59,677 nucleotides of DNA from a virus. Numbering within the stretch: position 1 is the stretch's first letter; every line of letters begins with the position of its first letter. Position numbers and translations under genes: made by a program. Where the stretch lies: the IMG/VR virus record IMGVR_UViG_3300025009_000014, positions 1-59,677 of that record; one strand, written 5' to 3'. Positions 14,369-35,399 of this stretch are shown piece by piece. Below the pieces are notes generated by a model. The model was not told the origin of the DNA, did not search any database, and saw only the letters and a list, made by a program, of their open reading frames with translations.

Positions 14369-15124
14369 TTATTGAAAATTTTCATATGCATATCCGGAGC
14401 CCCCGTTGTATAATTTCAGAATTTCAGATGCGGTCAAAACCCTGCTCCAAATTCCGACTTCATCTATTTTTCCGTTCATATACTGTGTTGTTGCCGTAGG
14501 TCTTGCCCCAAGACAAAAATTAGAGGCATTGGCTATTGTATCGGTCAGATTATTAGTATATATATCGTTTGTTTCATGTTGCCCGTTTACATACATATCA
14601 ACACCTGATGCATTTGAACTGCCGTCATAGGTCACGGCAATATGATACCAATTCCCTGTTTCAATGGGATACAATGATCCGAAAATAGAGAAATCATTCC
14701 CTGATGTATTATTTCTTAATGCAAAGTGCAATTTATAGGGTTGTAACCCCGCCCCCGAATTTCGGAGCATAAAAAGAAATCCTCTTGCATCCCCTGTTGA
14801 TTCCATTTTGCTGATAACCGTATCCAATGTATCTGCAGAATCCCTGTACACCCATGCCGAAAATGAAAATGCATCTGTTCTTTCAAAACCTAAAATATTG
14901 CCGAATGATGCATATTGGGTGCCGTCACATGCTATACAACCGTTTAATTTACCTGTGGTAGTGGTCGTGGTATTCCCGGCACTGTCATAATTATTCGTAT
15001 GTGCATCCATTAATTGTGCGCCACCTGCTTCATCCAATTTCCAATATGCCTCTAAATTAGTGAGTAGAATATTAGGAATAGGTGTTGAACCCGATGCTTT
15101 ATTTAATCCGAAAAATAACCCCAT
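14369..15124 (-). CDS. LamG (concanavalin-like) domain protein, likely adhesin or spike
   Basis: A 251-residue protein. Residues about 25-245 match a LamG / concanavalin-A-like jelly-roll: AYWKLDEAGG at the start, FSFSAWVYRDS, ETGNWYHIAVTYDGSS, VDMYVNGQ and the closing KIDEVGIWSRVLTASEI, all hallmark motifs. Such domains bind glycans. It sits directly after the sialidase-like gene (8-base gap), so the two probably form the host-recognition complex. It has no signal peptide or membrane span, which fits a virion surface protein better than a secreted one. Confidence 0.85.
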   Translation of the reverse strand: MGLFFGLNKASGSTPIPNILLTNLEAYWKLDEAGGAQLMDAHTNNYDSAGNTTTTTTGKLNGCIACDGTQYASFGNILGFERTDAFSFSAWVYRDSADTLDTVISKMESTGDARGFLFMLRNSGAGLQPYKLHFALRNNTSGNDFSIFGSLYPIETGNWYHIAVTYDGSSNASGVDMYVNGQHETNDIYTNNLTDTIANASNFCLGARPTATTQYMNGKIDEVGIWSRVLTASEILKLYNGGSGYAYENFQ

Positions 15125-15132
15125 AATTTTAA

Positions 15133-16893
15133 TTAAACAGATTCTGAAAACTTTCCGTAGGTAACATACAAAAACAAACCTATCCTTTTATAACTGACAA
15201 CAGAGTGTGCATTTGCCCCCGCATTAATATTTGCTGCAATGGGAGGGTTCCCGTCGATATACTTTGTCGTTAAACCTGAATTTTCAACCGCAGCAATCCC
15301 AAATCCACCGGTACCGTCTTGTATTATAACAATTTCACCGCTTTCCTGATCCGGTATGTTATTAATGCTTAACAATGTTACATCTGCCGTTAACGTAATC
15401 TGTGCCGATTTTGATTTACCGTGATCCATGACGGATTCTGTCGCATCGAATGTAATCGTTTTATTGATGTTGATACCTGTTTGATAATAGGCATTTACCA
15501 TATTGTTCAATATATTGCCGCTGATAAATGCATACGATAATTCCGTTTCGCCTCCTGCCGATCCTTCCGTTTCCTGATTGTAGTTAACAAGAAGCAGCTC
15601 ATTGTTGATCACTACCGCACACCCGTTTCCACCGTTCACATATCCTGCCCCGTTATGAGCATAATCGTGTAACAGGTATGGTAAATGATAACCGTCTGTT
15701 TTTATTGAATCAACCCCCGTTAGCAGGTAATCACGCAAATTTATCAATGTCAGCCTCCAATCCTGAATGTTCGTTCCGTCATTACGTATCCAATAATTGA
15801 TTGCAAGCCACTTTTCATTTTGAATCTCGATCACGTTCATCTGTGGCAAAACAGAACATGAATTCGTTACGGTACCCATTGTTATACCCACACCGTGCAG
15901 GTATGCATAGCCGCTTAAATGCTCTTTGTTGTTGATATTTGTCTGTGTGAGTGTTTCCGTGCCGTCTGCCCATGTTCTCCCGTAATCTTTCGATGTCATC
16001 ATAACAGGTACGTTATGGCCTGCCGGGTTCTCGACGGAAGACAATCTCATGATCATGATGAAGATACCGTCACCGCAATCCACCATAGATTGTTCCCCGA
16101 ACTCTTTCATGTCACCGGTATCGTTTATAAATGCCACCGAATAATCGGGATCCCATGTTTCCCCGTCATCCGTGCTTTCGGCCAGACAAACCGCACACCT
16201 TCCGACTTCCGATATCCTTACCCAATACGGTGTGACTAAATTCCCTGAATCGTTGTAAATCGCCTTGTTGTCAAAAAAGTATGGTTGATAAACAATATTC
16301 GGTATATCCGGGTTTACAATTTCATAAGGATCAGACCACGTGGTGCCTAAATCATCCGTATAGAGTATTTTTGATTTTGTTGCGGTAACATCGGGTTCGG
16401 TCCTATATTGATAAAACACCAATAAACGTCCCGTATTTGTGAACATTGCCGTCCAATTCCTACCGTAATCGGTTGTCGCCACTTTTGTCTGCGTCCCGGT
16501 TCCGTCCAATCCCGTCCATGTTTTTCCTTTATCCGTGGACTTCCTTAAAAAGAAGAATTGTGTCGCGGTCGTATGCGATGAATAAATACCGTAGCATGTG
16601 ATCAACGTACCGTCTTTCGGATTTCTTGTCACCCGCGGGATCATCAGATACTGGTTATCTCCGTCGGCTTGTGAATCATCCCAAAATGCAAGTGTGTCGG
16701 GGATGATATTTTCTTGGTATCCGGAAGTTAAATCGTACCAAACCCCGTCGATATACATCTGAACGGTATTTGTCGTACTGTTGTTGATCGTGTAATTATT
16801 CGTAATGTTTGTTAAATCATCCCTTTCATCTGTCGTGTATGTGGGATATGGAAATGAATTCGACGATGTTTTTTGCCATCCGTTGTTGCTCAT
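15133..16893 (-). CDS. Sialidase-like beta-propeller, likely receptor-binding spike
   Basis: A 586-residue protein. Four Asp-box motifs (SxDxGxTW type) stand at residues 119-126 (STDKGKTW), 179-186, 240-247 and 301-308, which marks a six-bladed sialidase-type propeller over about 65-460. The usual RIP motif is MIP here (LMIPRV, near 83-88), so the first catalytic arginine appears to be missing; it may bind rather than cut sialic acids or related glycans. The last 110 residues are a separate beta domain. An N-terminal stretch (1-60) rich in T and N could attach it to the virion. It lies beside the LamG protein. Confidence 0.82.
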   Translation of the reverse strand: MSNNGWQKTSSNSFPYPTYTTDERDDLTNITNNYTINNSTTNTVQMYIDGVWYDLTSGYQENIIPDTLAFWDDSQADGDNQYLMIPRVTRNPKDGTLITCYGIYSSHTTATQFFFLRKSTDKGKTWTGLDGTGTQTKVATTDYGRNWTAMFTNTGRLLVFYQYRTEPDVTATKSKILYTDDLGTTWSDPYEIVNPDIPNIVYQPYFFDNKAIYNDSGNLVTPYWVRISEVGRCAVCLAESTDDGETWDPDYSVAFINDTGDMKEFGEQSMVDCGDGIFIMIMRLSSVENPAGHNVPVMMTSKDYGRTWADGTETLTQTNINNKEHLSGYAYLHGVGITMGTVTNSCSVLPQMNVIEIQNEKWLAINYWIRNDGTNIQDWRLTLINLRDYLLTGVDSIKTDGYHLPYLLHDYAHNGAGYVNGGNGCAVVINNELLLVNYNQETEGSAGGETELSYAFISGNILNNMVNAYYQTGININKTITFDATESVMDHGKSKSAQITLTADVTLLSINNIPDQESGEIVIIQDGTGGFGIAAVENSGLTTKYIDGNPPIAANINAGANAHSVVSYKRIGLFLYVTYGKFSESV

Positions 16894-16916: not shown

Positions 16917-17210
16917 TTATGGTGTTGTAATACTGATATTGGCATTTTCAAAGGTTGCCTCCACTACCGTTCCCGTCGCATCGATCACGAATTTTCCCCA
17001 TTCCCTTCCGTCGTTGCTTTCGCCTAAATTATAGCTTGATCCCGCCGGAAGGCTCCACGATCCCGTTTCCACGTTGCTGTCGTTGTAGCTTTTTATCGTG
17101 GCCGTCGCACTGCCCGTATTCAGGAACGAAACCCATGCCTGCCCTTTGTATAACGTGTATATGCCGTTGGTCACCGTCCTTGAATATACTGATTTGCTTT
17201 TAAAGTCCAT
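16917..17210 (-). CDS. Small beta-rich putative virion protein
   Basis: A 97-residue protein of alternating strands (GIYTLYKGQAWVSFL, then TATIKSYNDSNVETGSWSLP) with no membrane span. Its start overlaps the end of the muramidase gene by 11 bases. By position before the spike genes, it could be a spike base or a decoration protein. No family recognised. Confidence 0.6.
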   Translation of the reverse strand: MDFKSKSVYSRTVTNGIYTLYKGQAWVSFLNTGSATATIKSYNDSNVETGSWSLPAGSSYNLGESNDGREWGKFVIDATGTVVEATFENANISITTP

Positions 17211-17898
17211 TTGCTATTTTTTTAATGATTCCTTTCTTGTACATGATATATACCGCCGCTGCCGTCAGTATTATGATTGCAGTTATTATGGCAGCCTTCT
17301 TACCGCTTCCTGCTTTCGGCACTTCCGACATCAGTTTTTCTATCTTTGCCCCTCCCTGTCTGATCAGCGAGTTCGCATTATCCGTGCGCATCTCCACGGC
17401 AACGTCCACGAGTTTGTTCCTGTTGGTGATCCCGCTTTCTACCGCTTCGTTGAACTGTTCCGCGAACTTCTTGAACCATCCCGATCCGTTCCATGTCGAA
17501 TACACATAATTGAAAAACAACCTATTGTCTTTTTCTATTATTTTCTTCGATTTCTCGCTTAAATACCGTTCCGACAGTTTCTCATATTGCGGGTACATCA
17601 TTTCTGCAACCAATGCCTTCAGCTTCGGTCCGTAGCTCCCGCCCTTGTAGTTCCACTTCCATGTCTTTCTCGCTCCCGCTCCGTCGATGATCCCCCAAAA
17701 CTTCCTGCCTGCTTCCGTCGTGTTGATCGTGCCTCCGTTCAGACGGTCTATACCGAACATGGTTTCTCCCGATGCCCCGTAACGGCTGTCTTTTACCCTG
17801 CCGTCGTTCAGCATGTCGGGATGGTAATACCCTCCCTCCAGGTTGTCGATTATAAACGCGACTATGCGTGCGTAGTTATTTTTGGATAATACCTTCAT
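17200..17898 (-). CDS. Membrane-anchored muramidase (GH108-like)
   Basis: A 232-residue protein. The start FIIDNLEGGYYHPD followed by YGASGETMFGID matches the E-GGY...GGxTxxGI motif of GH108-type N-acetylmuramidases; the glutamate of LEGGY is the expected catalytic acid. Residues about 1-180 form the enzyme. A single span near 202-219 (IITAIIILTAAAVYIMY) and a basic tail follow. Known GH108 lysins are soluble; a C-terminal anchor instead suggests a virion enzyme held in a viral membrane that opens the wall at entry. It also could serve lysis. Confidence 0.82.
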   Translation of the reverse strand: MKVLSKNNYARIVAFIIDNLEGGYYHPDMLNDGRVKDSRYGASGETMFGIDRLNGGTINTTEAGRKFWGIIDGAGARKTWKWNYKGGSYGPKLKALVAEMMYPQYEKLSERYLSEKSKKIIEKDNRLFFNYVYSTWNGSGWFKKFAEQFNEAVESGITNRNKLVDVAVEMRTDNANSLIRQGGAKIEKLMSEVPKAGSGKKAAIITAIIILTAAAVYIMYKKGIIKKIANGL

Positions 17899-17900
17899 AT

Positions 17901-18083
17901 TTATTTTGCGAATACCCGGTTGATTAACGTGTTGATCAGGTTGCCTATCACCACTCCCGCGGTGATTGCCGCGAATATGTAGAGATAGTTCGACGGGTGA
18001 AGGTCACCCGTGACGTACATCTTTACCCCTTCTTCACCAACCAGGTTGTCCACGTATTCCATCACGCCTTTTTTCTTTTCCAT
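17901..18083 (-). CDS. 60-residue membrane protein
   Basis: A short protein with one span near residues 33-52 (LYIFAAITAGVVIGNLINTL) and a soluble N-terminal half. It is packed between the muramidase and the peptidoglycan-binding gene, sharing one base with the latter. A virion membrane protein or holin are both possible. Confidence 0.65.
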   Translation of the reverse strand: MEKKKGVMEYVDNLVGEEGVKMYVTGDLHPSNYLYIFAAITAGVVIGNLINTLINRVFAK

Positions 18084-18541
18084 TATGCTACCGTTGTTAG
18101 GTTAAACTGTTGTTTCATGTTATCGACATTGTACTTGATACGTTGGTAATAGTCTTCTTCCGTGTACGATGTCTTTAATCCCAATGTTTTCAGGGCTGTC
18201 TCTGTCTGTGATCCCCAATTGCCGTCTATTCCTATAAACCGCTTGTTGTTTTGGTCTTTTATCCAGAACGCGAGGTTGATATACTCTTGAAGCACTTTCA
18301 CTTCATCCCCCCTGCTGCCCTTGCTTAACGGGAATTTTGCGTTCCCGCTTCCGGTGTTGACGATCAATCCCGTCGGCCTGTTGTAAACGTCTTCCGTAGC
18401 GGAATCGCCCGTTTCTTTGCTGCCTCCCTTGAACCTGTTCAGCAATCCGGACAGTTTGTTGGATGTGTAAAGCCAAAATCCCCCTGCTATCGTCGCAAGG
18501 ATCAGCATCAGTACCAATGTGGTTTTTGTTGATTTTTGCAT
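18083..18541 (-). CDS. Membrane-anchored peptidoglycan-binding protein
   Basis: A 152-residue protein starting at ATG 18541; the frame continues upstream but that part overlaps another small gene. One span lies near residues 9-26. Residues about 72-125 match the PG_binding_1 fold: FPLSKGSRGDEVKVLQEYIN, then IGIDGNWGSQTETALKTLG. It should bind cell-wall peptidoglycan, next to the muramidase and the CHAP enzyme. I infer a virion part that docks to the wall during entry. Confidence 0.8.
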   Translation of the reverse strand: MQKSTKTTLVLMLILATIAGGFWLYTSNKLSGLLNRFKGGSKETGDSATEDVYNRPTGLIVNTGSGNAKFPLSKGSRGDEVKVLQEYINLAFWIKDQNNKRFIGIDGNWGSQTETALKTLGLKTSYTEEDYYQRIKYNVDNMKQQFNLTTVA

Positions 18542-18555
18542 ATCTTTTTTTTTAT

Positions 18556-18717
18556 TTATTGTGCCTTTTCTTCTTGGATTTCGCCCATCCGCTTCCCTTC
18601 TTTTTCTTCCGGGTTGAACTCTTTGGCCGTTTTTTTCTTTACCGCCCTGAAATACAGATACCCGCCTATTGCGGCCACTGCCAATACCGATCCCCAAATG
18701 ATTAATTTTCGTTTCAT
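18556..18717 (-). CDS. 53-residue membrane protein
   Basis: ATG at 18717 to TAA at 18556. One span near residues 5-23 (LIIWGSVLAVAAIGGYLYF), then a highly charged tail (KKKTAKEFNPEEKEG). The same layout as its neighbours and the tight packing (15 bases to the next gene either side) support it as a real virion-type membrane protein. Confidence 0.6.
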   Translation of the reverse strand: MKRKLIIWGSVLAVAAIGGYLYFRAVKKKTAKEFNPEEKEGKRMGEIQEEKAQ

Positions 18718-19278: not shown

Positions 19279-19383
19279 TTAAACTTCTTGGGTTTGAGCT
19301 TTCTTGTGCTTTTTGGCATACATGTAACCTGCAACCACTAACGCGAGCAACACCGCATACAGAATCATTTTTTTGTTTTTCAT
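19279..19383 (-). CDS. 34-residue membrane peptide
   Basis: ATG at 19383 overlaps the stop of the CHAP gene (ATGA), and the frame ends at TAA 19279. One span near residues 6-22 (MILYAVLLALVVAGYMY), then a basic tail KKHKKAQ. The coupling and the shared layout argue that it is real despite its size. Confidence 0.6.
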   Translation of the reverse strand: MKNKKMILYAVLLALVVAGYMYAKKHKKAQTQEV

Positions 19384-20018
19384 ATCGCTTTTTTTATGTG
19401 AATAAATCCTCTTAATCTTAACCCGTTCGTATTTGTCCAATCGTATTTTCTTTCCATCTGCCCCACTTCTATTCCTTCCCTGCCTCCCGAATCGTTCGTG
19501 TTGCCTTCTATCGTCGCGAACGTGTCTTTGTTTGTTTTTTCTACTATCCCTATGTGTCCCTGATACGTAGGCATCCCGTTCTGATACTTTTGCCAGATCA
19601 CGAGATCGCCTTTTTTGGGTGCTTTCGTGATCTCGAACAGCCCAGATCCGTCCTTTGCAAAATTGTCAAAGGTTGCCTGTGTGCTTGGCGTGATCAGCCT
19701 GTCCACCAATTCTTCGTGCCGTCTGCCTACTTTCTTCATTACCACCATTTTTACAAACGATGCGCACCATGCAGCCGAATTCCTGAAATCACCGTACTCG
19801 CGCATCAGCCTGTCGAACTCTTCGTTCTCGAATCCCATGTTGCCGGCTATCTCCCTTTCTCCCGTCCACTTTTTCGCAAACCTTACGAACTTGTTTTTGC
19901 GGATCATGTAATAAACGAGCATTGCCGCACCCAATGCCGAGAATATCGCGAAACCGACGGCTATCTGCGGGTGCTTCTTTACCGTTCCGACTATATTTTT
20001 TGAGAACTCTTTTATCAT
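19380..20018 (-). CDS. Membrane-anchored CHAP amidase/endopeptidase
   Basis: A 212-residue protein. One span lies near residues 18-38. Residues about 78-205 form a CHAP-like NlpC/P60-fold domain: catalytic Cys85 in AAWCASF, GDLVIW strand near 137-142, His155 in QGHIGIVE, and IEGN near 170-173 as the third residue. The enzyme would cut peptide parts of peptidoglycan. It is the second wall enzyme of the virion-like block after the muramidase, again with a membrane anchor. Confidence 0.82.
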   Translation of the reverse strand: MIKEFSKNIVGTVKKHPQIAVGFAIFSALGAAMLVYYMIRKNKFVRFAKKWTGEREIAGNMGFENEEFDRLMREYGDFRNSAAWCASFVKMVVMKKVGRRHEELVDRLITPSTQATFDNFAKDGSGLFEITKAPKKGDLVIWQKYQNGMPTYQGHIGIVEKTNKDTFATIEGNTNDSGGREGIEVGQMERKYDWTNTNGLRLRGFIHIKKAI

Positions 20019-22093: not shown

Positions 22094-22753
22094 CTATTTT
22101 TTAAGGTTGATAATTAAATGATACGTGTTCCTGATAAAGCATGACGAGACAAACCCGCCATCCTGTTCGTTGTATATCGATAAGCCCGACAATATCTCGC
22201 TTGTCACGGCCATCAGTTTTTTGTTGTAGTTGCCGTCTTCCTGTAAATTTGTTTCTGCAAGGATGTTGAATATTCTTTTGAGCATGTTGGTTTCCGTCGA
22301 TTTGTCGCCCTTGCGGATCCCTTCGTCCCCGCAGTTCGATCCCGTTACTTCCCTGAAATCCCTGTTGCCCCGGCTTCTCGCAAACATGATGTTGAAGTTG
22401 CGGATAAAGGTCCTGTTCACGGCATTGTCGTAAAATATGTTGTCGGTGTCTTCATCCAATCCCGCGGCAACCCTGAAAAAATAATCGTCTGCCGCGCCCA
22501 CTCCCGCGAAATATTTTATTCCCGCTATCTCGTTGCAGTTTTCCTCGAATTCCCGCAAATCGTCGTCGGTTTCGTTGAAAGAGATGGTCTGTCTCCCTTC
22601 CGGTTCGGGTTGCGGTTGCGGTTGGTTGTCCGGTAACGGTTCGGGTTGCGGTTCATCGCCTTTTGCAGGTTTTACCCTGTTGCGGTACCACATGACCGCG
22701 ATCGCGATCAATACGCCTATGATTAAACCTTTGATGAATTTTTTGTCTGTCAT
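22094..22753 (-). CDS. Membrane-anchored protein with proline-rich linker
   Basis: A 219-residue protein. An N-terminal span (about residues 8-22, IKGLIIGVLIAIAVMW) is followed by a P/E/Q linker (PQPEPLPDNQPQPQPEPEG) and a compact soluble domain (about 60-219) with two cysteines. No known fold recognised. The rod-like linker suggests that the domain stands away from the membrane. It overlaps the jelly-roll paralogue gene by 4 bases. Confidence 0.62.
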   Translation of the reverse strand: MTDKKFIKGLIIGVLIAIAVMWYRNRVKPAKGDEPQPEPLPDNQPQPQPEPEGRQTISFNETDDDLREFEENCNEIAGIKYFAGVGAADDYFFRVAAGLDEDTDNIFYDNAVNRTFIRNFNIMFARSRGNRDFREVTGSNCGDEGIRKGDKSTETNMLKRIFNILAETNLQEDGNYNKKLMAVTSEILSGLSIYNEQDGGFVSSCFIRNTYHLIINLKK

Positions 22754-23811
22754 TTTATCCTTCTTATTAAATAAACCAATAATGATATTGTCCCTATGGT
22801 TGTCGTGATGATCTTGATTTGTTTCAGTATGTCTTTTCGTTTGAATTCGGCTATGTACTCCCCTTTTACGATCTTTTGTTTTACATTTTCATACATGTTT
22901 GTAATCTGTTTGCCCATTGTCTGCCTTTCTTCCGGTTTCTGATACGAGAACAGCATCGTGACTTCCGTGTTCGGCTCTATCTCGTACTCAAAACTGTCAA
23001 CCCCTATCAACACCGGCTGTTTGAAATAAATGATCGTCTGGTTGTTGAAATCTTTTGTCGTTATGAAATCAAACGCGTTGATCGTGCTTTCTTCCGTTAC
23101 GAGGTTCAAGATATCCCTGGTGATCACTTTCATCATCTTCTGCCTTTGCACCGCGTTCGTGCTGTCTATCCTGATCACGTTGTAATATTGCGGATCCTGA
23201 CGTAAACTCTGTACCAATGCCGTGTATGAAGGCCCCGTGTTTTCGGGTGTCGGTTCGGGTGTGCCGCTTCCGCTTCCGTATGTTCCGGTGATCGTGAATA
23301 CGGATACGTAATTTGGTGATTCCGATCCTTCTACCATCATGTTCCCGTCGTCATAATCGGATGTAGAATTCAATGTTAATCGTAATCCTATCTGTCCCGA
23401 ATCTGCCCTTTGCAGTTCATACGTGTAATTAACCCCTGCCGTTACGTTCACATCCACGGTGTAGGTGCAGCTCTGGTTTTTTATCCCCGTCAATCCCGTA
23501 TAGGTTGCGATGGTTGCCCCCGTATCTTTGTTTTTGATGGTCAGGATGAAATTGGTGCCGTCGTTTCCCGCTTCGTTGTTATCGAATATTACCGTTATCG
23601 ACGATATTTTACCCGTATATGGCTGCAGCCATGCCTGTCCCAAAGATACCGCGTTGAAATAACTTCCAGTGTTGACCGTTTGTTGTACCGTGAAAGGTGT
23701 GGTCGGTGTCGAAGGGGTGCTTTTTGAAGTCGTGCCGATATCGAACATGGTCACTGTCTGTGCCGTGCTTTCCGTATTCGATATTTTAACTGCAAACCCG
23801 CTCATAATCAT
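22750..23811 (-). CDS. Membrane-anchored paralogue of the putative capsid protein, with inserted domain
   Basis: A 353-residue protein. Two parts align by eye with the putative capsid protein at 27285. Residues about 6-25 (VKISNTES and on) match its residues 37-57 (ITVQNTNT), and residues 197-289 match its 82-174 without gaps of note: DPQYY vs DPFRI, MKVITRD vs LKVVEED, TKDFNNQ vs NKDYNGY, and EPNTEVTMLF vs NAGETLTFIF. Between them, residues about 30-195 hold an extra beta domain ending in a GSGSGTPEPTPE linker. A span near 333-349 and a basic tail end the protein. I infer a vertex or spike-base protein that ties the shell to the membrane. An ATG at 23805 is an alternative start. Confidence 0.65.
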   Translation of the reverse strand: MIMSGFAVKISNTESTAQTVTMFDIGTTSKSTPSTPTTPFTVQQTVNTGSYFNAVSLGQAWLQPYTGKISSITVIFDNNEAGNDGTNFILTIKNKDTGATIATYTGLTGIKNQSCTYTVDVNVTAGVNYTYELQRADSGQIGLRLTLNSTSDYDDGNMMVEGSESPNYVSVFTITGTYGSGSGTPEPTPENTGPSYTALVQSLRQDPQYYNVIRIDSTNAVQRQKMMKVITRDILNLVTEESTINAFDFITTKDFNNQTIIYFKQPVLIGVDSFEYEIEPNTEVTMLFSYQKPEERQTMGKQITNMYENVKQKIVKGEYIAEFKRKDILKQIKIITTTIGTISLLVYLIRRIK

Positions 23812-24563
23812 TCGTCAAACATTAATTTCGATTCATAGGCATCCAACCATTCCTCCGCATTCTTCTGCCTCTCTTTGCTGTATATCCCCGGTGTGAGCAT
23901 CTGGAACGCGTACCAACCCTCTATCACGGGATATTTCATATCCAAAAAAAGTTTCAGGCTGTTGATATCCGCTTCGAATTCGTCGTCGATATTTCTGTTC
24001 ATGGCTTTGTGCGCATATTCGTGACTGATCAATATCGTCCGGATGGGTACCGAAACCAAATCAAAAGCGGCCTTGCTCACCTCGATCACATCCGCCACGC
24101 TCGCATATCTTGCCGGCGTGTCCGTGATCTCTTCAACGATCTTTATCCTGAACTGCTTCTTTTTGTCGGTATATGTGCCGGGCATGTAGTTGAAGAACTC
24201 GAACGAAAACTTCTTTACAAATGCCTGAAACTCTTCTGTTTTTTTGTCAAACTTGAAATCAAGGCTCTTAAATTCCGTTATCGGGCTGACTTCTACCTTG
24301 AAGACATCGAAATCGTATTGCGGCTTTTCCGAAAAAATCAATACTGTTAAGAACTTTCCTGTCATCGGCACCCCGAACCTGTACGCTTTTTTTTCGCCCG
24401 GTTCGGCATCCCTCGAAAACAACATGGTGTTCGGGCTGTTTTCGTTGAACCCGTTTATGCTCAAAACATTCGCGGGGGACGTTCCCACCGTTATATTTAT
24501 CGCCACGGGCCTGTTGTCGGTCTTTATCCTTACCTCGTAAGGTTTATTTCCCTTTACCCGCAT
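23808..24563 (-). CDS. Putative virion zinc metallopeptidase (HExxH)
   Basis: A 251-residue protein. Residues 1-95 form a beta-sandwich-like N-terminal part. Residues 181-185 are HEYAH, the zincin motif, and DDEFEAD at 193-199 can supply the third ligand, 12-14 residues on. The enzyme could mature virion proteins or act on the host envelope at entry. No signal peptide or membrane span is present. It overlaps its jelly-roll neighbour by 4 bases and the next gene upstream by 20. No close family recognised. Confidence 0.65.
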   Translation of the reverse strand: MRVKGNKPYEVRIKTDNRPVAINITVGTSPANVLSINGFNENSPNTMLFSRDAEPGEKKAYRFGVPMTGKFLTVLIFSEKPQYDFDVFKVEVSPITEFKSLDFKFDKKTEEFQAFVKKFSFEFFNYMPGTYTDKKKQFRIKIVEEITDTPARYASVADVIEVSKAAFDLVSVPIRTILISHEYAHKAMNRNIDDEFEADINSLKLFLDMKYPVIEGWYAFQMLTPGIYSKERQKNAEEWLDAYESKLMFDE

Positions 24564-24957
24564 TTTTTTTCTTCATGATCACAAGAACAAGTATGACGAG
24601 TGCGACAATTATCCCGGTTGCGATCAGCCATGTACGCAGTTTCTTGTTGTACTTCTCGCTGTCTTTGTCTTCGGGGTATATCTCATACGCATCCCCTTCG
24701 TCGTACACCTTTGCACCGTTTTTCAACTTGCCGTACACATCCGCGCCTTTCTCGCCCCATGTCAGTATGGAATCGATCCATGTTTTCAGTTTTTCGCCCT
24801 TTTGTGCCGTCCCGTCTTCTTCTACGTCCTCTATCAATATCGGATCGAGTTCTTCCATCTCGTTGATGTCGAGATCACGGGTATTTGTCCCGGATTGTGT
24901 CGTGGTCGTCTCGTAATTGAAATACTTTTCGTTCCTTACTTTTTTGCGAATATCCAT
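24544..24957 (-). CDS. C-terminally anchored membrane protein
   Basis: A 137-residue protein. The soluble part (1-105) is acidic (ELDPILIEDVEEDG) with a central helix; one span near 110-128 (WLIATGIIVALVILVLVIM) is followed by KKKNAGKGK. Tail-anchored topology shared with several neighbours. Function unknown. Confidence 0.62.
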   Translation of the reverse strand: MDIRKKVRNEKYFNYETTTTQSGTNTRDLDINEMEELDPILIEDVEEDGTAQKGEKLKTWIDSILTWGEKGADVYGKLKNGAKVYDEGDAYEIYPEDKDSEKYNKKLRTWLIATGIIVALVILVLVIMKKKNAGKGK

Positions 24958-25193
24958 TTTTTCGTTTTTTTAAGGTATATAAATAATCCTGCCAATACGA
25001 CAACCGATATCCCTGCCGCGATCATCCACTTCTTTCGGTTCGCGTTTGCCTGTGCGTTCATGTTCCCGTCGTAGTTCTCTTTGTACTTCACACCGTATTT
25101 CTCGGCATCTTTCCTGATCTCCTCGCGGTAATCGTCTTCGTTGTACGATGAAACCTCGCTTAAATATTGGTTTGCTATGTCTTTTGCGCCCAT
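24936..25193 (-). CDS. C-terminally anchored small membrane protein
   Basis: An 85-residue protein: a charged helical head, one span near residues 56-73 (WMIAAGISVVVLAGLFIY) and the basic tail KKTKKWIFAKK. It overlaps the next gene by 22 bases. Confidence 0.62.
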   Translation of the reverse strand: MGAKDIANQYLSEVSSYNEDDYREEIRKDAEKYGVKYKENYDGNMNAQANANRKKWMIAAGISVVVLAGLFIYLKKTKKWIFAKK

Positions 25194-26105
25194 TTATTTC
25201 TTTTTTAACCGTTTGTACATATAATATCCGATTGCCGCAACCGCCAATGCCCCCAAAACATAATAGATTTTTTTGTTGTCGGTGATGTTGTTCACAACAG
25301 TTGCACCGAAAGTCCCGCTGTTGTTGATCTTTTTTTCCTCTGTTTCGAGTTTGGATATCTCGGCTGCCTGTTTGGCAATCTCTATCTTGATGTTTTGCAG
25401 CGAAAGCCCTTCCGCTTTCAGGTCTGCCTCGTGCATTTCCTGTTGCCTCAGTTCCTCTGACCGTGCCTCGGCTTCACGTGCATCCTGCATCTGTTGTTCC
25501 ACGAACCGGTCGTCTTCCGATATCATGTTGTCGTATTTGGCTTTCAGGGTGGTGTAATTGGTGACTGCCGCGCCTAATGCCGTAGATGAGGCGGCCACGG
25601 CATCCCTCCAAGACGTATAGGATGAAAGCACGTTGTTTTTATGCACGTTGCACAAGTATTTTCTCTTGCATTCGAAGTATTTCTTTTCGGCCATCGAATA
25701 GTTCAGCAGGTCCGAATTGTGTTTTGCCTGCAACCGTGTTTTTTCGGTCAGTGCCGCTGTTACGGCCGCTTCCTGTGCCGCTATTTCGGCTGCGGTATAT
25801 ATGTGTTGGTATCCGCCGTCGAAGTTTTTGAACTTTTCTTTTTTCTTCAATCTCAACCGTTCGATCGATATCTTTTTTTCCTCGATCTTCCTTCTGTTGC
25901 TCTCCAATATGCGGGTAAGCATCAGTTTTTTGTCCATTGTCGTCAGCGTTTTGTCCGCATCCATCTGCGAAAATAATACGTTCGGGGATTGGATGTTGAC
26001 AAGGGGAAGTTCTTTCCCTTCTTTCATGGCCTTTGCAAATCGGGCGACAACGGTAAGCTGCTTTTCCGATTTTATGTTGTAACGGTTTGTTTTTGGCTTG
26101 ATCAT
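25194..26105 (-). CDS. Long coiled-coil, tail-anchored membrane protein
   Basis: A 303-residue protein. Residues about 60-110 and 190-262 are strongly coiled coil (QQMQDAREAEARSEELRQQE region), with an alanine-rich helical middle. One span near 280-296 (IYYVLGALAVAAIGYYMY) is followed by KRLKKK. It is the largest of the tail-anchored set and could be a scaffold or a membrane-to-capsid spacer. Confidence 0.65.
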   Translation of the reverse strand: MIKPKTNRYNIKSEKQLTVVARFAKAMKEGKELPLVNIQSPNVLFSQMDADKTLTTMDKKLMLTRILESNRRKIEEKKISIERLRLKKKEKFKNFDGGYQHIYTAAEIAAQEAAVTAALTEKTRLQAKHNSDLLNYSMAEKKYFECKRKYLCNVHKNNVLSSYTSWRDAVAASSTALGAAVTNYTTLKAKYDNMISEDDRFVEQQMQDAREAEARSEELRQQEMHEADLKAEGLSLQNIKIEIAKQAAEISKLETEEKKINNSGTFGATVVNNITDNKKIYYVLGALAVAAIGYYMYKRLKKK

Positions 26106-26395
26106 GCTTTTTTCTTTTTATAGATGACTATTAGTGCTATGGTTGACAGTATCGCCACTCCCGCGATGATGTAGGGTGCCTTGCTTGTTTCCGGCTGTGC
26201 CGTGTATTGTTGTTCCAACATGCCCGTGAGTTTGTCCTGGTATTGATCCCTCAATTCGTTTGTCATCGTGTTTTCCGCTTTCTTCTTTTGCAAAAAACTG
26301 TACAATGCGCCTCCCGGATTGAGTACGGCAAATATGCCTTTCCCTTCCTTGAACTTTTGTCCGAACGTTACGGCTGTGGTCTTTAAATCTGCCAT
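26102..26395 (-). CDS. C-terminally anchored small membrane protein
   Basis: A 97-residue protein with a soluble head including FAVLNPGGALYSFLQKKKAE, one span near residues 77-92 (IIAGVAILSTIALIVIY) and a KKKKA tail. Overlaps the coiled-coil gene by 4 bases. Confidence 0.62.
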   Translation of the reverse strand: MADLKTTAVTFGQKFKEGKGIFAVLNPGGALYSFLQKKKAENTMTNELRDQYQDKLTGMLEQQYTAQPETSKAPYIIAGVAILSTIALIVIYKKKKA

Positions 26396-26396
26396 G

Positions 26397-26873
26397 TTAC
26401 TTCTTTTTGTTTTTGAATATCAATATGCCCGCAACCGCCATAAATGCCAAAACGGATGCTATCACGATCATGGTCTGCAGACGCTTTTGTCTGGCCTGTG
26501 CCTCTTTCTCTGCGGCTATCGCCTTTAACAGTTCTTTTGTCTGTTCGTCTTCTGCCGCTTCCTTGCTTTGTTTTTTCTTGATGATGTTGGATGCGACACC
26601 CGCTACCGCGCTCACGATGCCGACGATGGCCGTCACGAAGTTCTTGTGTCCGCTTTCCGATACCACGAGTGTTTTTTTGCTTTTCATCAGTTCGGTGAAC
26701 TCCGTCGCGAACGCCTCGTTCTCCGACAACTGTGTCAATACGGTGTCGATCAGTTCCCGGTTGCTTATTTTTGGCGGCACGGGATGATACTTTTTTAGGA
26801 TGATCACGGTTTCCCTGCCGTGTCTTACGATTGTCTTGGCTATTGCCCTTGATATGTTGGTTTCCGTGTTCAC
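26397..26873 (-). CDS. Membrane protein with two spans
   Basis: A 158-residue protein. A helical head (1-70), a moderate span near 76-94 (FVTAIVGIVSAVAGVASNII), a basic and alanine-rich linker, and a second span near 137-153 ending FKNKKK. Same tail type as its neighbours. Confidence 0.62.
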   Translation of the reverse strand: MNTETNISRAIAKTIVRHGRETVIILKKYHPVPPKISNRELIDTVLTQLSENEAFATEFTELMKSKKTLVVSESGHKNFVTAIVGIVSAVAGVASNIIKKKQSKEAAEDEQTKELLKAIAAEKEAQARQKRLQTMIVIASVLAFMAVAGILIFKNKKK

Positions 26874-26875
26874 GT

Positions 26876-27220
26876 TTATGATTTTAAGAATTTGAGTATT
26901 GCGATGATGCCTATAATTAACAAAGCGACCTGAACCATGTTCATGTCGATCTCTATCGGTTTCATTTTGGAGGTGTCTGTTGTTACGGGCAGTTGTGTGA
27001 TACGGACGTTGGAAAAATGCGCGAGCAGTGCGTTTTTATCCGGATGCAGGTTCAATACCTGCTTTTCTCCGTCGTTGGTTTCGTCGATAAACAGTTCGGC
27101 ACTTTCTATAAGCTCGTCGAACGATTGCGGCTTGTTATACCCGTTCGACATCAACAGCCTTTCCAATCCTGCCGTGTTGCTTAACGCGATGTATTCGAGA
27201 TAACTCATTGAGTTGTTCAT
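26876..27220 (-). CDS. C-terminally anchored membrane protein next to the capsid gene
   Basis: A 114-residue protein starting at ATG 27220 (MNNSMSYLEY); the longer frame to 27274 would run through the terminator hairpin at 27236-27259, so it is not preferred. The soluble head is acidic; a span near 96-112 (VQVALLIIGIIAILKFL) ends the protein. It is the first gene after the capsid-like gene. Confidence 0.62.
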   Translation of the reverse strand: MNNSMSYLEYIALSNTAGLERLLMSNGYNKPQSFDELIESAELFIDETNDGEKQVLNLHPDKNALLAHFSNVRITQLPVTTDTSKMKPIEIDMNMVQVALLIIGIIAILKFLKS

Positions 27221-27235
27221 AGTCTGATGTTTAAA

Positions 27236-27259
27236 AGAAGGGATATAAATATCCCTTCT
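27236..27259 (-). terminator. Terminator or attenuator after the capsid-like gene
   Basis: agaagggatat at 27236-27246 pairs with atatcccttct at 27249-27259; read on the minus strand, a T4 run follows. Placed between the capsid-like gene and the rest of the operon, it would let the first gene be made in excess. Confidence 0.75.
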
Positions 27260-27284
27260 AAACAAATACAACACTTACAAATAC

Positions 27285-27887
27285 TTACAGGTTTTTGTAG
27301 GGGTCTTCGCTTTTGAGGGTTGCTCTTCCGGAAAGTTCGTTTCCTCTCGACAACATGTCACTTATGTTGAAGATGAAGGTCAAAGTTTCGCCGGCGTTTA
27401 CAGATACCTCGATGTATGAAGTCTTTTGAACCTTCATCGAGAAATCTCTCGCTTCAACCAAATATCCGTTATAATCCTTGTTGGACTTGTAGTTCAACGG
27501 GTGGATGGTGGTTTCGGTCTTCTTTCCGAACGCGTCTTCTTCGACAACCTTTAAACTGTTTGCGAACTGTGCCGTACTCAAAGTCGTTTGGTATTTCATA
27601 CCTTTGATTCTGAACGGATCGGCAAGGATCGTATCCAACAATTCTTGATGGTTTGCGTTTGCAGGGGTTACAACGATCTCGTTGGCGAGGTTGTTTACTG
27701 CGGTTGCGGTACCGATTGCACCAAAAATACGTGCGGTCTTTGCAGATGCGGTATTGGTGTTTTGAACGGTGATCGATAACGTAGATGCGTTGGGGTCGAG
27801 TTTTTCAACAGCGGTTTGGCTTCCGGTAATATTGAAATATTTTTCGGCTGCCTGTCTTTTTCGTGCAATTGTTTGTTTGAAGTTCAT
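27285..27887 (-). CDS. Putative major capsid protein (beta-rich, single jelly-roll size)
   Basis: A 200-residue soluble protein with no signal peptide or membrane span. After a basic N-terminal arm (1-30) it appears to be nearly all beta strands (TLSITVQNTNT, NEIVVTP, YIEVSVNAGETLTFIFN). Several facts point to a capsid protein. It is first in the virion-like operon; it has a good ribosome site (AGGAGA) and its own promoter region; a terminator right after it would raise its dose; and a membrane-anchored neighbour (22750-23811) shares its domain. Single jelly-roll capsid proteins of membrane phages such as P23-77 have about this size. No direct family match was made, so the call is inference. 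Confidence 0.55.
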   Translation of the reverse strand: MNFKQTIARKRQAAEKYFNITGSQTAVEKLDPNASTLSITVQNTNTASAKTARIFGAIGTATAVNNLANEIVVTPANANHQELLDTILADPFRIKGMKYQTTLSTAQFANSLKVVEEDAFGKKTETTIHPLNYKSNKDYNGYLVEARDFSMKVQKTSYIEVSVNAGETLTFIFNISDMLSRGNELSGRATLKSEDPYKNL

Positions 27888-30366: not shown

Positions 30367-30418
30367 AAGGGACACCGGTATGCCATGAACCGGCATCCCA
30401 CATTTTTAGTGTTCCCTT
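30367..30418 (-). terminator. Hairpin at the end of the 30406 gene
   Basis: On the minus strand the stem AAGGGAACAC / GTGTCCCTT, with an inner CCGGT / ACCGG stem, overlaps the stop codon of the gene at 30406 and is followed by AATTTTAATTTT. The paralogue at 57094 has its own hairpin in the same place. Confidence 0.65.
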
Positions 30419-30879
30419 ATTTTTACCAATTTTTTGATTTTCTTCATCATATCCCTTACGGCACGGTATGAAAAAATGATCTCTATCATTTCTTCCCTCG
30501 GAATCACTTCGTTGTAAGAAATAAAAGCGAGCATTACGTCATGAAAATTTTCCATGATGTTTTCAGGGCTGTCGTGTTCGAGAAGTTCGTTGATGATCCG
30601 TTCCGGAGTTAAGGCATTTGCACATGTCGTGCCGCTGTCATTTTTTGCTTGCATAATAAAATGATTAAAATTAAACAAAGAAGGGAGGTCTCTGCAAGCA
30701 AAATCCATGCGGTGCATAGAATTGACTCGGAACTTACATCCGTTAGCCTCCCCCTGTTTATTTGGTCGTCCTTTGTTTGTGGTAAATACACCATTGGATT
30801 CTACTTGCACCACAAACATACAGAATATTATGGAAACAGATACCAAAACAAGGATAATATTTTTAATTTTTTTATTCAT
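30406..30879 (-). CDS. Secreted/membrane small protein, paralogue A
   Basis: A 157-residue protein from ATG 30879 (MNKKIKNII). An N-terminal hydrophobic segment (about 7-26) acts as a signal or anchor. Its last 54 or so residues (from LLEHDSPENIMENFHDV) are almost identical to those of the gene at 57094, and the DNA there is 97.5% identical over 162 bases, while the N-terminal halves have diverged. It stands directly after the packaging-type ATPase gene. Function unknown. Confidence 0.7.
   Translation of the reverse strand: MNKKIKNIILVLVSVSIIFCMFVVQVESNGVFTTNKGRPNKQGEANGCKFRVNSMHRMDFACRDLPSLFNFNHFIMQAKNDSGTTCANALTPERIINELLEHDSPENIMENFHDVMLAFISYNEVIPREEMIEIIFSYRAVRDMMKKIKKLVKIREH
30427..30588. 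repeat. 162-bp duplicated segment, copy 1
   Basis: Matches 57103-57264 with four mismatches in 162 bases by my count. It encodes the conserved C-terminal module of the paralogous genes at 30406 and 57094. Recent duplication or gene conversion is the likely cause. Confidence 0.9.
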
Positions 30880-30896
30880 TATTATTTTATAAGCCT

Positions 30897-31736
30897 TTAT
30901 GAGAAATACATTTTTGCCTTTTCTATATAGAAATTTTGAAATACTTCTTCTTCCGATGCATAAATCAATTTTCCGTTCTGATCGCGCTGCATCTTTATGT
31001 TCCTGAACTGTGATTGGTTTTCCGAAAGATACAATGCACATGCTTTTTTGAACTGTTCCTGTGTGACGTTCAGTATCTTTCTTTCGCGCAGGTTCAGGTA
31101 ACAATAATACCGTATGTTTCCTTTCAGATACTCGTCTTTGACCACATGCTCGCATATCCTGAACATTTCATAATGGTCTTTATACTTATCGGTTGAGAAC
31201 GTGATCACGCTGTCGCCTGTTTTATGCAGCCTTACAACGGTCGTGTTTTTTAGGATTTTCGGGTGCGGATCCCCGATGTTCTGATAATGGATGATGATAT
31301 CCACCCCGCTGTGCCTTGCCCTTGTCAAACGCGAGTAGAATCCCTTCGGAACGGATGAAGTGATGTAGGCGTTGATATCTTCCAACAGGAATAATCCGTT
31401 GCGAAAGTTCATAAAGATATCCACGGCTGCACGTACCATATCTTCGTCCTCGTATTCCAAGCCGTTCTTATATCTGGCCAATATCCTGTAAATAGCGGGT
31501 TTTTTTATGTTGCGGATGTATTTTACCCTCTCCGCTTCGTTCTCTTCATCCACGTCGTAGGCTATGGCCTTATACGGTCCGAAATCTCCCGTTCCGTTGA
31601 ACTCGTTGTTCACATCAAGGATCAGCACCGGGCGTTTTTGCATCTCGACATACTTCTCTATCACGTTTTTTAACGTGAAATAGGTCTTTCCCACTCCTGT
31701 CATTCCGAATACGAGACTGATAAACGGGTCTCTCAT
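30897..31736 (-). CDS. FtsK/HerA/A32-type genome-packaging ATPase
   Basis: A 279-residue soluble ATPase. Walker A is GMTGVGKT (11-18); Walker B is LFLLED (115-120); RHSGVDIIIHYQ (141-152) matches the conserved region before the sensor in packaging ATPases of the PRD1-adenovirus type and in HerA. KTYFTLKNVI and LILDVNNEF (39-46) also fit. It lacks the membrane spans of Zot, VirD4 and FtsK and the nuclease domain of terminases. I infer that it pumps DNA into a preformed capsid. It overlaps the Cys-rich gene upstream by 4 bases. Confidence 0.8.
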   Translation of the reverse strand: MRDPFISLVFGMTGVGKTYFTLKNVIEKYVEMQKRPVLILDVNNEFNGTGDFGPYKAIAYDVDEENEAERVKYIRNIKKPAIYRILARYKNGLEYEDEDMVRAAVDIFMNFRNGLFLLEDINAYITSSVPKGFYSRLTRARHSGVDIIIHYQNIGDPHPKILKNTTVVRLHKTGDSVITFSTDKYKDHYEMFRICEHVVKDEYLKGNIRYYCYLNLRERKILNVTQEQFKKACALYLSENQSQFRNIKMQRDQNGKLIYASEEEVFQNFYIEKAKMYFS

Positions 31737-32799: not shown

Positions 32800-33507
32800 T
32801 TATTTATATTTTAAATCAAAATTCAATCCCCAATCCGAATTATGGTGGCATACGATCATCGATGTGTCGATATAATTCATGATTTTTAGCTTATACAGCA
32901 AATCCTCATAAAAATAGGTATCGGAATGCCCCTTGCGGTTTAAATCGTAGCGGAACGGCAACTGCTCGATAATGGAACGGTGAATAAGGCTGCATCCGAT
33001 CCCGTTGGCTGCCGATTGTAACAGTTTTCCGTTATAATCCTGAAATGCTTTTTGCAAACTCGGCACAAAGCTCTTGATCGTCATGTTGTCAACCGTGAAC
33101 TGCTCGTAATACAGATAGGATTCTTCGGCTAACCAAATGAAGTACGGCACCGATACGATCTCTTTTTTATCCGACAACAGTTTTTCGATCACGTTTCTTG
33201 GCGGAAAAATATCAACCTCCAATGAAAACAGATAATCGTAATCATTCTCCAAAAACTTTTTGCGTATCAGATTTTGGCTTTCCGTTATATACACACGGCT
33301 GTCCTTACCGGAAGGGTTCACATACGCTACATCGATTCCCAAATCCTTTAATTCCTGATGGTATTTATCGTCAATCGAATTATCCACTATGAAAATATCA
33401 TAGTTTTTATACGTCAGGTTTTTGGCATACAGATACCACGTAAGGAATATGTATTCCTTATGGATGCTCGTGGGTGCGGCAAGCAGTATTTTAGGATTTC
33501 GGAGCAT
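32800..33507 (-). CDS. GT-A-fold glycosyltransferase
   Basis: A 235-residue protein. KILLAAPTSIHKEYI at the start, YDIFIVDNSIDD in the nucleotide-sugar region, SLEVDIFPP (acid motif near 95-100) and ANGIGCSLIHRSI suggest a family-2-like glycosyltransferase. It is the last gene of the glycan island and overlaps the small membrane gene by 17 bases. The sugar is not predictable. Confidence 0.75.
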   Translation of the reverse strand: MLRNPKILLAAPTSIHKEYIFLTWYLYAKNLTYKNYDIFIVDNSIDDKYHQELKDLGIDVAYVNPSGKDSRVYITESQNLIRKKFLENDYDYLFSLEVDIFPPRNVIEKLLSDKKEIVSVPYFIWLAEESYLYYEQFTVDNMTIKSFVPSLQKAFQDYNGKLLQSAANGIGCSLIHRSIIEQLPFRYDLNRKGHSDTYFYEDLLYKLKIMNYIDTSMIVCHHNSDWGLNFDLKYK

Positions 33508-33742
33508 CTTTTTTTGTTTCCGGTTCGGGTTTTTTGTCTTCTTCCTGTTTTTCCGCTTCTGCTTTTTTCAGACGGTCTTCCACCGATTGTAACAATTGTG
33601 CCGCAGTTTCTATATTCTGGTTATCCTGCAACAAACGTTTTATGGTTTGCTTTTTCTTTCTGTTTTGAATCAGCAATGTTACCAATATGGCTGTAAATAA
33701 TAAGCCTCCACCTAAATAAATAATAATCTGTTTTTTTGTCAT
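33491..33742 (-). CDS. Small membrane-anchored charged protein
   Basis: An 83-residue protein: one span near 6-24 (IIIYLGGGLLFTAILVTLL), then a coiled coil and a K/E/P-rich tail. It resembles the virion-type membrane proteins more than a glycan enzyme, yet it sits within the island. Confidence 0.6.
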   Translation of the reverse strand: MTKKQIIIYLGGGLLFTAILVTLLIQNRKKKQTIKRLLQDNQNIETAAQLLQSVEDRLKKAEAEKQEEDKKPEPETKKDAPKS

Positions 33743-33754
33743 ATCTTTTTTTTA

Positions 33755-34378
33755 TTAACTTTTCAAATAAAATGCATCGCTCCATCCCTGGTTGTTATGG
33801 TTCGGTCCCGTGGCGATCCTTTCAAATCCGTAATCTTTAAGATAGGCATCCAACTGTTCGATCAAAACGCAACCCTCGTACATCTCGATAAAATTGACCT
33901 CCGTATAAATACAGTCGATGTATGTCAAAAGATTTCCCGCCCCTATCAAGGCATTGAGTTCGTTACCCTGCAAATCCATAACGAGACAGTTGTATTTACT
34001 TCTGTCAAACACCAAATTCTCTATCAATTCCACTTTTACGGTTTCTTTCTTTGAAAACAGTATCGTAGGATATTTGACCAGATGTTCTTTGGCAGTCAAC
34101 AAAGAACTGCTTTGTCCCTGGTTGGTTTCGTCGCATTGCATTTCAAATTCACCCTCTACATCGGAGACGGCTACATTGTATAAAATAGCATGTTCCAATC
34201 CCTTCACCCGTTCCTGTAAAACCGCAAATGCATGTTTCAATGGTTCTATCAATACAAACTGATTAAAACCGCAAGCGATGAATGTTTCCTTTTCCTGAAA
34301 ATAATGCGCACCCAACTGTATTATCCCTTTCGGGTTTATCTTATGTGTCTGTATGAGTTGTTTGAAATCTAACATCAT
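33755..34378 (-). CDS. FkbM-family methyltransferase
   Basis: A 207-residue protein. GIIQLGAHYFQE is the SAM-binding start, IEPL the acidic loop, VMDLQGNELNALIG the family's DVQGAE-type motif, and NNQGWSDAFYL the usual end. FkbM enzymes methylate sugars or polyketides; here a glycan hydroxyl is most likely. It overlaps the next gene by 4 bases. Confidence 0.85.
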   Translation of the reverse strand: MMLDFKQLIQTHKINPKGIIQLGAHYFQEKETFIACGFNQFVLIEPLKHAFAVLQERVKGLEHAILYNVAVSDVEGEFEMQCDETNQGQSSSLLTAKEHLVKYPTILFSKKETVKVELIENLVFDRSKYNCLVMDLQGNELNALIGAGNLLTYIDCIYTEVNFIEMYEGCVLIEQLDAYLKDYGFERIATGPNHNNQGWSDAFYLKS

Positions 34379-35049
34379 GATAATTCTATTTTATGTGATT
34401 TGAACTGTTTATGTATCATGTACCCGTCGAAAAACTTATATTTCAACGAATGCATGGATGCATATAGGTTTACCGCCCGTTCATGTATATGCGGATGGTT
34501 TTTGATCGAAAGTATTTTCGGCACGTATTGTTTGTACCAAACGACGAACATATCCAGAAATACTATGGGAAGGATGCAGTTTGTCGTCGCGTTCCAAAAT
34601 TCATACCCGTTTTTTGCAGACTCCAAAAGCCCTTTAGGCATAAGTTCGCAAAATTCGGGTATGCTGTCGAGATAAAGAGGTGACTTTACGGGGTATCGAA
34701 AAAATCCACCGAATGTCCTGTAATCCATCTCTTTTTCCAATTCAAAAAGATCGCGGTGTATCACTACATCGTATTCAAACAAACCTATGTATTTTGCCCT
34801 TGCCTTACAGTTGGACAACAATGCATACCAAGCGGTATAGGTCAATAATGTGGGGTACTTTTCGATATTGTTCTTAAACAGGTTCGGCACTATCGTACCT
34901 TTCGGCATATAATCGGGTACTTCTGAATGATCACCCACCAGAACGTATTTGTATTTGTCAAAATTACCGTTGATGTTACGGTTGTTATTCACAAACCACT
35001 CGTAACTTGCCCTGTCGTGACATATGATGTATATTTCAAGATTATCCAT
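34375..35049 (-). CDS. Putative glycosyltransferase (DUF4422-like)
   Basis: A 224-residue protein. LEIYIICHDRASYEWF at the start, YIGLFEYDVVIHRDLFELE with an acid motif (near 97-103), and a region of aromatic residues suggest a GT-A-type transferase. The similarity is weaker than for its neighbours, and the context of the island carries much weight. Confidence 0.55.
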   Translation of the reverse strand: MDNLEIYIICHDRASYEWFVNNNRNINGNFDKYKYVLVGDHSEVPDYMPKGTIVPNLFKNNIEKYPTLLTYTAWYALLSNCKARAKYIGLFEYDVVIHRDLFELEKEMDYRTFGGFFRYPVKSPLYLDSIPEFCELMPKGLLESAKNGYEFWNATTNCILPIVFLDMFVVWYKQYVPKILSIKNHPHIHERAVNLYASMHSLKYKFFDGYMIHKQFKSHKIELS

Positions 35050-35060
35050 TTATTGTTACT

Positions 35061-35399
35061 TTAAAGTTCATACTCATAACAAAGCGCATCAAACATTAAT
35101 TGAGAAAATGGTTTTTTAAATGAATGCAAAACCTTTTGCCCCATCCACATTAAACAACTTATCGGCTCACCATACCATTCTTCTTCACAATTCAAGAAAG
35201 TTATTTCAATTGGTTTATAAAAGTCATATATTTTATCCCAATCTAATCTTATCTCAAATCTATAAATGCCTTTTACAAAAGAATAAAACCTCGTTTCATC
35301 ATGTTTTTTCTCCCAACCCCTATCGTTTTTAAACCCTTTTTCTTCTAATTGCTTAATAAGTTCATCACAAAAACTATATATGTTATCGGTTTTATCCAT
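35061..35399 (-). CDS. Hypothetical protein in the glycan island
   Basis: A 112-residue acidic/aromatic soluble protein (FYSFVKGIYRFEIRLDWDKI). AT-rich relative to the neighbouring transferases. No domain recognised; it may be an insert. Overlaps the next gene by 8 bases. Confidence 0.5.
   Translation of the reverse strand: MDKTDNIYSFCDELIKQLEEKGFKNDRGWEKKHDETRFYSFVKGIYRFEIRLDWDKIYDFYKPIEITFLNCEEEWYGEPISCLMWMGQKVLHSFKKPFSQLMFDALCYEYEL

Follow-up and report, generated by a model that had tools for sequence, protein, structure and literature searches.

The IMG/VR virus record IMGVR_UViG_3300025009_000014 was analysed over its entire length of 59,677 bases (hereafter the window). Positions 1-127 (no strand assigned) are identical to positions 59551-59677, and because both ends share this exact 127-bp overlap the genome is most likely circular and complete, with a length of 59,550 bp. 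Two minus-strand genes are the focus of this work. The first encodes a 200-aa protein (27285-27887), a putative major capsid protein on the basis of profiles, relatives and an AlphaFold model, which appears single-jelly-roll-like and carries no membrane span. The second encodes a 353-aa protein (22750-23811), which has a C-terminal hydrophobic span and in which profiles indicate a split jelly-roll-like core and an inserted domain; it is a putative vertex or spike protein. Both open reading frames (ORFs) lie where an earlier note, made from the sequence alone, had placed them; that note had proposed a shell protein and a membrane-tied vertex or spike version of it made by duplication. Neither protein has a significant match to a Pfam or PHROG family.

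Direct comparison of the two proteins by BLASTP gave 22.7 bits (E=0.006, as a single comparison), a weak score that is expected because pairwise identity is only ~20-26%. A profile built from the 200-aa protein together with two relatives, and without the paralogue, found residues 187-288 of the 353-aa protein at 2.2e-5; among 284 ORFs from the window and two related elements, the 353-aa protein ranked right behind the orthologues and a 216-aa positional orthologue. When a capsid profile free of window sequences was run on the 241 window ORFs, the 200-aa protein (3e-31) headed the list, followed by the 353-aa protein (0.016), with the next ORF at 1.5. The full capsid profile scored 17.8 bits on the 353-aa protein against a maximum of 13.7 in 5000 shuffles. 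Profile-profile comparison of capsid and paralogue, which the earlier note had named as its check, gave E=1.4e-4 and 5.9e-4 (single comparisons). The hand alignment of residues 82-174 with 197-289 came close to the computed one of 77-175 against 193-290, and the shared C-terminal core as delimited by profiles covers residues 193-292 of the 353-aa protein (22936-23235, minus strand), corresponding to about residues 77-175 of the 200-aa protein.

The first strands of the two proteins had also been thought to match. When the first strand pair was turned into a window-free profile, the best of 27,570 positions in the window ORFs was at residues 6-24 of the 353-aa protein (FAVKISNTESTAQTVTMFD; 23740-23796, minus strand), and the equivalent residues 37-55 of the 200-aa protein were third. 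Both sides of the insert therefore match. An alignment of the 353-aa protein with full-length capsid proteins misplaced the first strand to the opposite end of the insert and was rejected; split alignments were unstable and were also rejected. Chance similarity of two beta-rich proteins would be in keeping with the low identity, the BLASTP E-value and the 0.016 of the window-free profile, but it is barely credible given first or second rank in whole-genome scans on both insert sides, a 216-aa intermediate and an orthologous gene position. Because these individually modest tests combine with the fixed gene position and the intermediate, there is little doubt from the sequences that the 200-aa and 353-aa proteins are paralogues. 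The duplication proposed in the earlier note is upheld in this respect, while a tree of the jelly-roll copies did not decide between one and several duplications at the origin of the vertex-type copies.

Relatives were sought in several collections. None was found in phage and plasmid collections (50,697 phage records), by IMG/VR pattern scans with the 200-aa protein, the ATPase and alignments, or by a genome-contig scan; seven contigs from a DNA-motif scan were rejected for want of a convincing link. When the 200-aa protein was used to search 393 Bacteroidales genomes, two true relatives with agreeing neighbourhoods emerged, L040 (4.5e-7) and L041 (1.4e-6). The weak matches L042-L046 and L048 were set aside, L042 (L051) sitting among housekeeping genes and L043-L046 being DUF4143-like ATPases by inspection. 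The profile of the 200-aa protein, L040 and L041 (A1) then found a second, shorter copy of 216 aa on G035:C48, the contig of one of these two relatives (E=2.7e-9). With this copy added (A2), a search of Bacteroidia genomes gave strong matches at 2.5e-16 to 1e-23, and a larger alignment added more; L073, located among chromosomal genes, was rejected. The 200-aa family occurs in at least 14 Bacteroidota genomes besides the window, mostly as part of a shared gene block. Since matches were seen in 4 of 393, about 9 of 395 and 5 of 87 genomes, or roughly 1-6% of sampled Bacteroidia, the lineage is not rare.

Gene blocks were compared in relatives with sufficient flanking DNA. In nine elements a capsid-like gene is followed by genes for small membrane-anchored proteins and then by one for an HExxH protein, with the larger paralogue coming immediately next; the HExxH gene lies directly upstream of the vertex-type gene in 9/9 relatives having both. 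The capsid-type gene, small membrane proteins, HExxH gene and ATPase are conserved together. A non-viral origin, with these proteins displayed by a plasmid or by an element carried in vesicles, would fit the circular genome, the ParB-like and integrase genes that are both in the window, and the near lack of relatives in viral collections. We consider it very doubtful, however, as the window is itself an IMG/VR viral record and the ATPase, capsid-like, small anchored and cell-wall-active proteins travel together in relatives.

G035:C48 is also circular, with a 127-bp overlap and a length of 109,076 bp. Repeated duplications are seen on it (L060-L064, L050): jelly-roll-like copies number at least three, small anchored proteins occur several times and there are two ATPases. 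One 272-aa jelly-roll-like copy (L060:4404-5222) has an N-terminal span and an acidic, disordered-looking insert in another loop than that of the 353-aa protein. The second ATPase (L063:5957-6736) has GMNESIKV instead of GMTGVGKT and is probably a non-catalytic partner, as its Walker A motif is lost.

The extra ~165 residues of the 353-aa protein were expected inside the shared domain and lie there, between the first strand pair and the remainder of the core, at about residues 27-192 (23236-23733, minus strand; position from profiles, boundaries approximate). The window insert has no Pfam family, giving a weak match to the immunoglobulin-like Kre9_KNH (E=0.019, residues 71-139), and no homologue of it was found in 198 Bacteroidales genomes or PDB sequences. 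Orthologues with a propeller lie directly downstream of the HExxH gene in L075, L077, L078, L081 and L096-L099, and the insert site holds 308-316 residues in L075, L077, L081 and L096-L099. Pfam matches of the propeller-type insert are Lactonase (7.9e-9) and YNCE (1.8e-6), and a PDB search linked it to an archaeal surface-layer protein, whose YVTN propeller it matches at 4.6e-18. The 216-aa copy on G035:C48 occupies the same gene position without any insert, its capsid profile E-value reaching 7.4e-12 with a later profile.

AlphaFold models cover two proteins, the 200-aa protein and the L077 propeller orthologue. In the L077 model the propeller comprises residues 210-499, with most blocks at a predicted local distance difference test (pLDDT) score of >80. 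Before it come strands 153-159, 165-169 and 189-196; after it come a helix (511-521) and strands 524-533, 542-548, 551-554, 571-575, 587-593 and 597-608. The 200-aa model has strands 35-43, 50-54 and 71-75, a helix at 80-89, and then strands 92-101, 112-117, 123-128, 143-153, 158-163 and 168-178. Strand order is identical in the two models, with the propeller placed between the third strand and the helix. The comparisons support reuse of the insert loop in syntenic orthologues for unrelated domains, namely a YVTN propeller, or none.

The strand order of the 200-aa model is single-jelly-roll-like, and its strands suffice for one jelly-roll only. With a predicted template modelling score (pTM) of 0.62, a mean pLDDT of 64 and best blocks of 75-86, the model points with moderate confidence to a jelly-roll-like fold. 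Across elements of 10-109 kb, no structural protein is as well conserved as the 200-aa family, which is also the sole soluble beta protein among conserved block proteins; as the other conserved block proteins are not soluble beta proteins, it is by exclusion the candidate for the shell. Both proteins might instead be surface adhesins or minor virion proteins, with another protein forming the capsid, and the weak fold match to known capsids and the common occurrence of beta-sandwiches in fibres and adhesins would suit this. It is nevertheless decidedly improbable in view of the conservation of the 200-aa family and the lack of any other conserved soluble beta protein in the block. In addition, the weak top PDB matches of the 200-aa model (template modelling scores ~0.2-0.3) include jelly-roll coat proteins of cucumber mosaic virus (CMV), satellite tobacco mosaic virus (STMV) and picorna-like viruses. 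The capsid-like proteins of L075-L099 have a long acidic N-terminal tail and an Arg-rich C-terminal tail, both of which are missing from the window protein.

The main rival explanation is that both proteins are major shell proteins, the larger alternating with the smaller in capsomers and carrying a tower, as do VP16/VP17 of P23-77 and VP7/VP4 of HCIV-1. Two jelly-roll-like proteins, an ATPase and many membrane proteins would be expected of such a virus. In HCIV-1, VP7 has one jelly-roll and VP4 bears a second on top (PMC6414509). The second G035 copy, with neither insert nor anchor, would also fit. One recognisable jelly-roll copy was seen, however, in each of two small elements whose contigs may be incomplete: L095 (G269:C67; 10.8 kb), with an integrase, the ATPase, the HExxH protein and the capsid-like protein, and L084 (G885:C279; 11.4 kb), with the hallmark genes. 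The single copy in L095, perhaps an incomplete contig, suggests that a shell may be buildable from one protein, the second copy being an added vertex or spike part. An anchor and the exchange of a whole outer domain would also better suit a low-copy vertex protein, and we regard a two-protein shell as unlikely. The capsid-like proteins of L095 and L084 start with a signal-like or membrane segment.

We favour, at a probability of roughly 0.6, the reading that the window encodes a shell protein and a vertex or spike paralogue whose insert is exchangeable and probably binds receptors, and that the phage lineage, so far undescribed, is tailless and probably membrane-containing; the shell and vertex roles, surface exposure and receptor binding are what we infer from the evidence above. 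The 200-aa protein would be a single-jelly-roll shell protein, and the 353-aa protein would derive from a copy of the shell domain and probably sit at the fivefold vertices. Its jelly-roll core (residues 6-24 and 193-292) would fit the lattice, and its C-terminal hydrophobic span would help to hold the protein at the membrane. The inserted domain of ~165 residues, which occupies the loop following the second strand, would face away from the core and bind the host. As other lineage members have a YVTN-type propeller or nothing there, this loop may act as a socket for interchangeable receptor-binding domains.

Several observations weigh against this proposal. In the 200-aa model, the loop at 57-68 and both tails have pLDDT <50. 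A PDB fold search with the model gave nothing below E=0.001, and a viral structure library returned unspecific matches only. The jelly-roll part of the L077 model has a pLDDT of only about 43-65, and because of this the correspondence between the models is an agreement in strand order rather than a superposition. The CD loop (between strands C and D) of vertical jelly-rolls may be on the inner side of the shell. Should the two strands preceding the insert be B and C, it would lie in this CD loop and might then face inwards. The membrane tie put forward in the earlier note is weakened. A hydrophobic C-terminal span with K/R flanks is present at residues 331-349 (22765-22821, minus strand), with a hydropathy that is borderline for a membrane anchor (1.57 over 19 residues, 1.70 over 17 residues). 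The anchor is C-terminal in the window and N-terminal in L077 and L078, and no span was seen in the G035 216-aa copy or at either end of the L081 and L096 orthologues. The membrane span is thus not conserved across orthologues of the vertex-type protein, and a tie this variable is unfit to define it.

A PHROGs scan of 30 window proteins gave no match to portal, HK97-capsid or tail families, and the ATPase alone weakly matched a family labelled terminase (1.8e-8); the HK97-type capsid, portal, terminase and tail genes that define Duplodnaviria are in this sense missing. As the genome is complete, this argues for a tailless virus. Predicted anchors in many small proteins suggest a membrane-containing one, and the particle probably has an internal lipid membrane. 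The element is probably a temperate, tailless double-stranded DNA phage of Bacteroidota; a tyrosine integrase (9281-10444, minus strand; phrog_1, 1e-25) marks it as temperate.

The remaining block genes also lie on the minus strand. Following the capsid gene are those for a 132-aa C-terminally anchored protein kept right after it (26876-27274; 6e-8 in relatives), a 158-aa C-terminally anchored protein that is the conserved third block gene (26397-26873; 1e-9 in relatives), a 97-aa C-terminally anchored protein (26102-26395, by hydropathy), a conserved 303-aa coiled-coil-like protein with a weakly hydrophobic C-terminus (25194-26105; 5e-5 in relatives), and membrane-anchored proteins of 85 aa (24936-25193) and 137 aa (24544-24957), both by hydropathy. 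The 251-aa HExxH protein (23808-24563), a putative metallopeptidase with the motif ISHEYAH, overlaps the start of the 353-aa gene; it has a beta-rich N-terminal part, is kept in every large relative and could possibly be a maturation protease. A HerA/FtsK-type ATPase with a putative role in genome packaging (30897-31736; DUF87 1.1e-6, above cut-off) is present in most relatives with enough flanking DNA.

Further minus-strand genes encode a membrane-anchored CHAP peptidase that may act in entry or lysis (19380-20018; 5.9e-11), a membrane-anchored, probable peptidoglycan-binding protein recognised through relatives and a family scan (18083-18613, the listed ORF opening at 18697), a 60-aa membrane protein conserved in relatives (17901-18083; 1e-7) and a C-terminally anchored protein that is lysozyme-like by inspection, with no Pfam family (17200-17898; 3e-54 to L084). 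Many of these proteins have a single membrane span. Close to these cell-wall-active genes, LamG and BNR/sialidase-like proteins (14369-16893) possibly bind or cleave host glycans. A glycosyltransferase-like cluster at 32800-38479 includes, by inspection, an FkbM-type methyltransferase and a GT11-like fucosyltransferase, and one of its genes has a G035 homologue (2e-40). The region 42751-52656 encodes a DarB-like helicase, which carries a zeta-toxin-like kinase domain at its C-terminus, and, as a separate protein, a DarB-like methylase. Owing to a recent duplication, the ORFs 30406-31155 and 57094-57525 are almost the same over a C-terminal stretch (ELLEHDSPENIMENFHDVMLAFISYNEVIPREEMIEIIFSYRAVRDM).

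Among known viruses, Singelaviria (formerly Helvetiavirae; Thermus phage P23-77, haloarchaeal HCIV-1/HHIV-2) have two jelly-roll proteins, the larger with an extra outer part, which compare with the two jelly-roll-like proteins of the window; a packaging-type ATPase, many membrane proteins and the lack of a tail are further resemblances. Both of their major capsid proteins have a vertical single-jelly-roll fold, of which the 200-aa model shows a jelly-roll-like strand order, with no significant PDB match. Their FtsK-HerA class ATPase has a counterpart in the window (DUF87/HerA). In HCIV-1, a jelly-roll penton is joined to a membrane protein (PMC6414509), whereas here the anchor is within the vertex-type protein itself and the paralogy is readable in sequence. 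Singelaviria genomes are about 16-30 kb (PMC12642351, PMC12643093), in contrast to up to 109 kb in this lineage of Bacteroidota, and no sequence or profile similarity to Singelaviria capsid proteins was found in 50,697 phage records or PDB sequences. The double jelly-roll of Varidnaviria (Bamfordvirae) is likewise missing, as the 200-aa model shows strands enough for one jelly-roll only and no second shell candidate was seen in the conserved block.

The tectivirus vertex, with a penton protein and an extended paralogue (P31/P5), is similar in plan. In PRD1/PR772, P31 resembles the P5 N-terminal domain, and a beta-propeller motif occurs in the receptor protein, P2 (PMC6750898). The tectivirus extension is, however, C-terminal and the propeller a separate protein, while in the window lineage the domain interrupts the jelly-roll-like core. 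Tectiviruses also have a double-jelly-roll shell, in contrast to the single-jelly-roll-like 200-aa model. The adenovirus penton base is a jelly-roll with a distal insertion domain that binds a host receptor (PMC7248032). It is like the 353-aa protein in having a jelly-roll or jelly-roll-like domain with an insert, although hosts and shell differ, and no sequence link is known or was seen here. No exchange of the adenovirus insert for unrelated domains is known. Charybdis elements are circular, were overlooked in databases and have jelly-roll-like proteins and variable protrusion genes (PMC12324425), but their jelly-roll proteins are much smaller (~100-170 aa), their putative capsid fold differs, their host is archaeal and no link was seen. 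Profiles and the L077 model indicate a shell-domain paralogue with an inserted extra domain, as in a penton. By analogy, the vertex-type protein may work like the tectivirus, adenovirus and HCIV-1 pentons, an analogy that makes no claim of membership in any of these groups.

No description of such phages in Bacteroidota was found in the open-access literature, weak evidence that covers open-access papers only, and the lineage stands a fair chance of being new at high rank. At somewhat less than even odds, these elements could form an undescribed lineage of order level or higher, comprising tailless membrane phages of Bacteroidota (10-109 kb) with their own single-jelly-roll shell and a vertex protein that is a recognisable copy of the shell protein with one socket loop for unrelated receptor-binding domains. 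As a lineage present in ~1-6% of sampled Bacteroidia genomes but absent from every named phage record searched, it is a candidate for a large group that has been overlooked. To our knowledge, kinship between shell and penton in known tailless viruses is mostly visible only in structures. Here the kinship of shell and vertex proteins is still readable in sequence, with an insert-less intermediate and orthologues carrying other inserts, so that duplication, insertion and exchange would be open to direct study. Exchange of the insert suggests how an almost unseen phage group may change its binding target.

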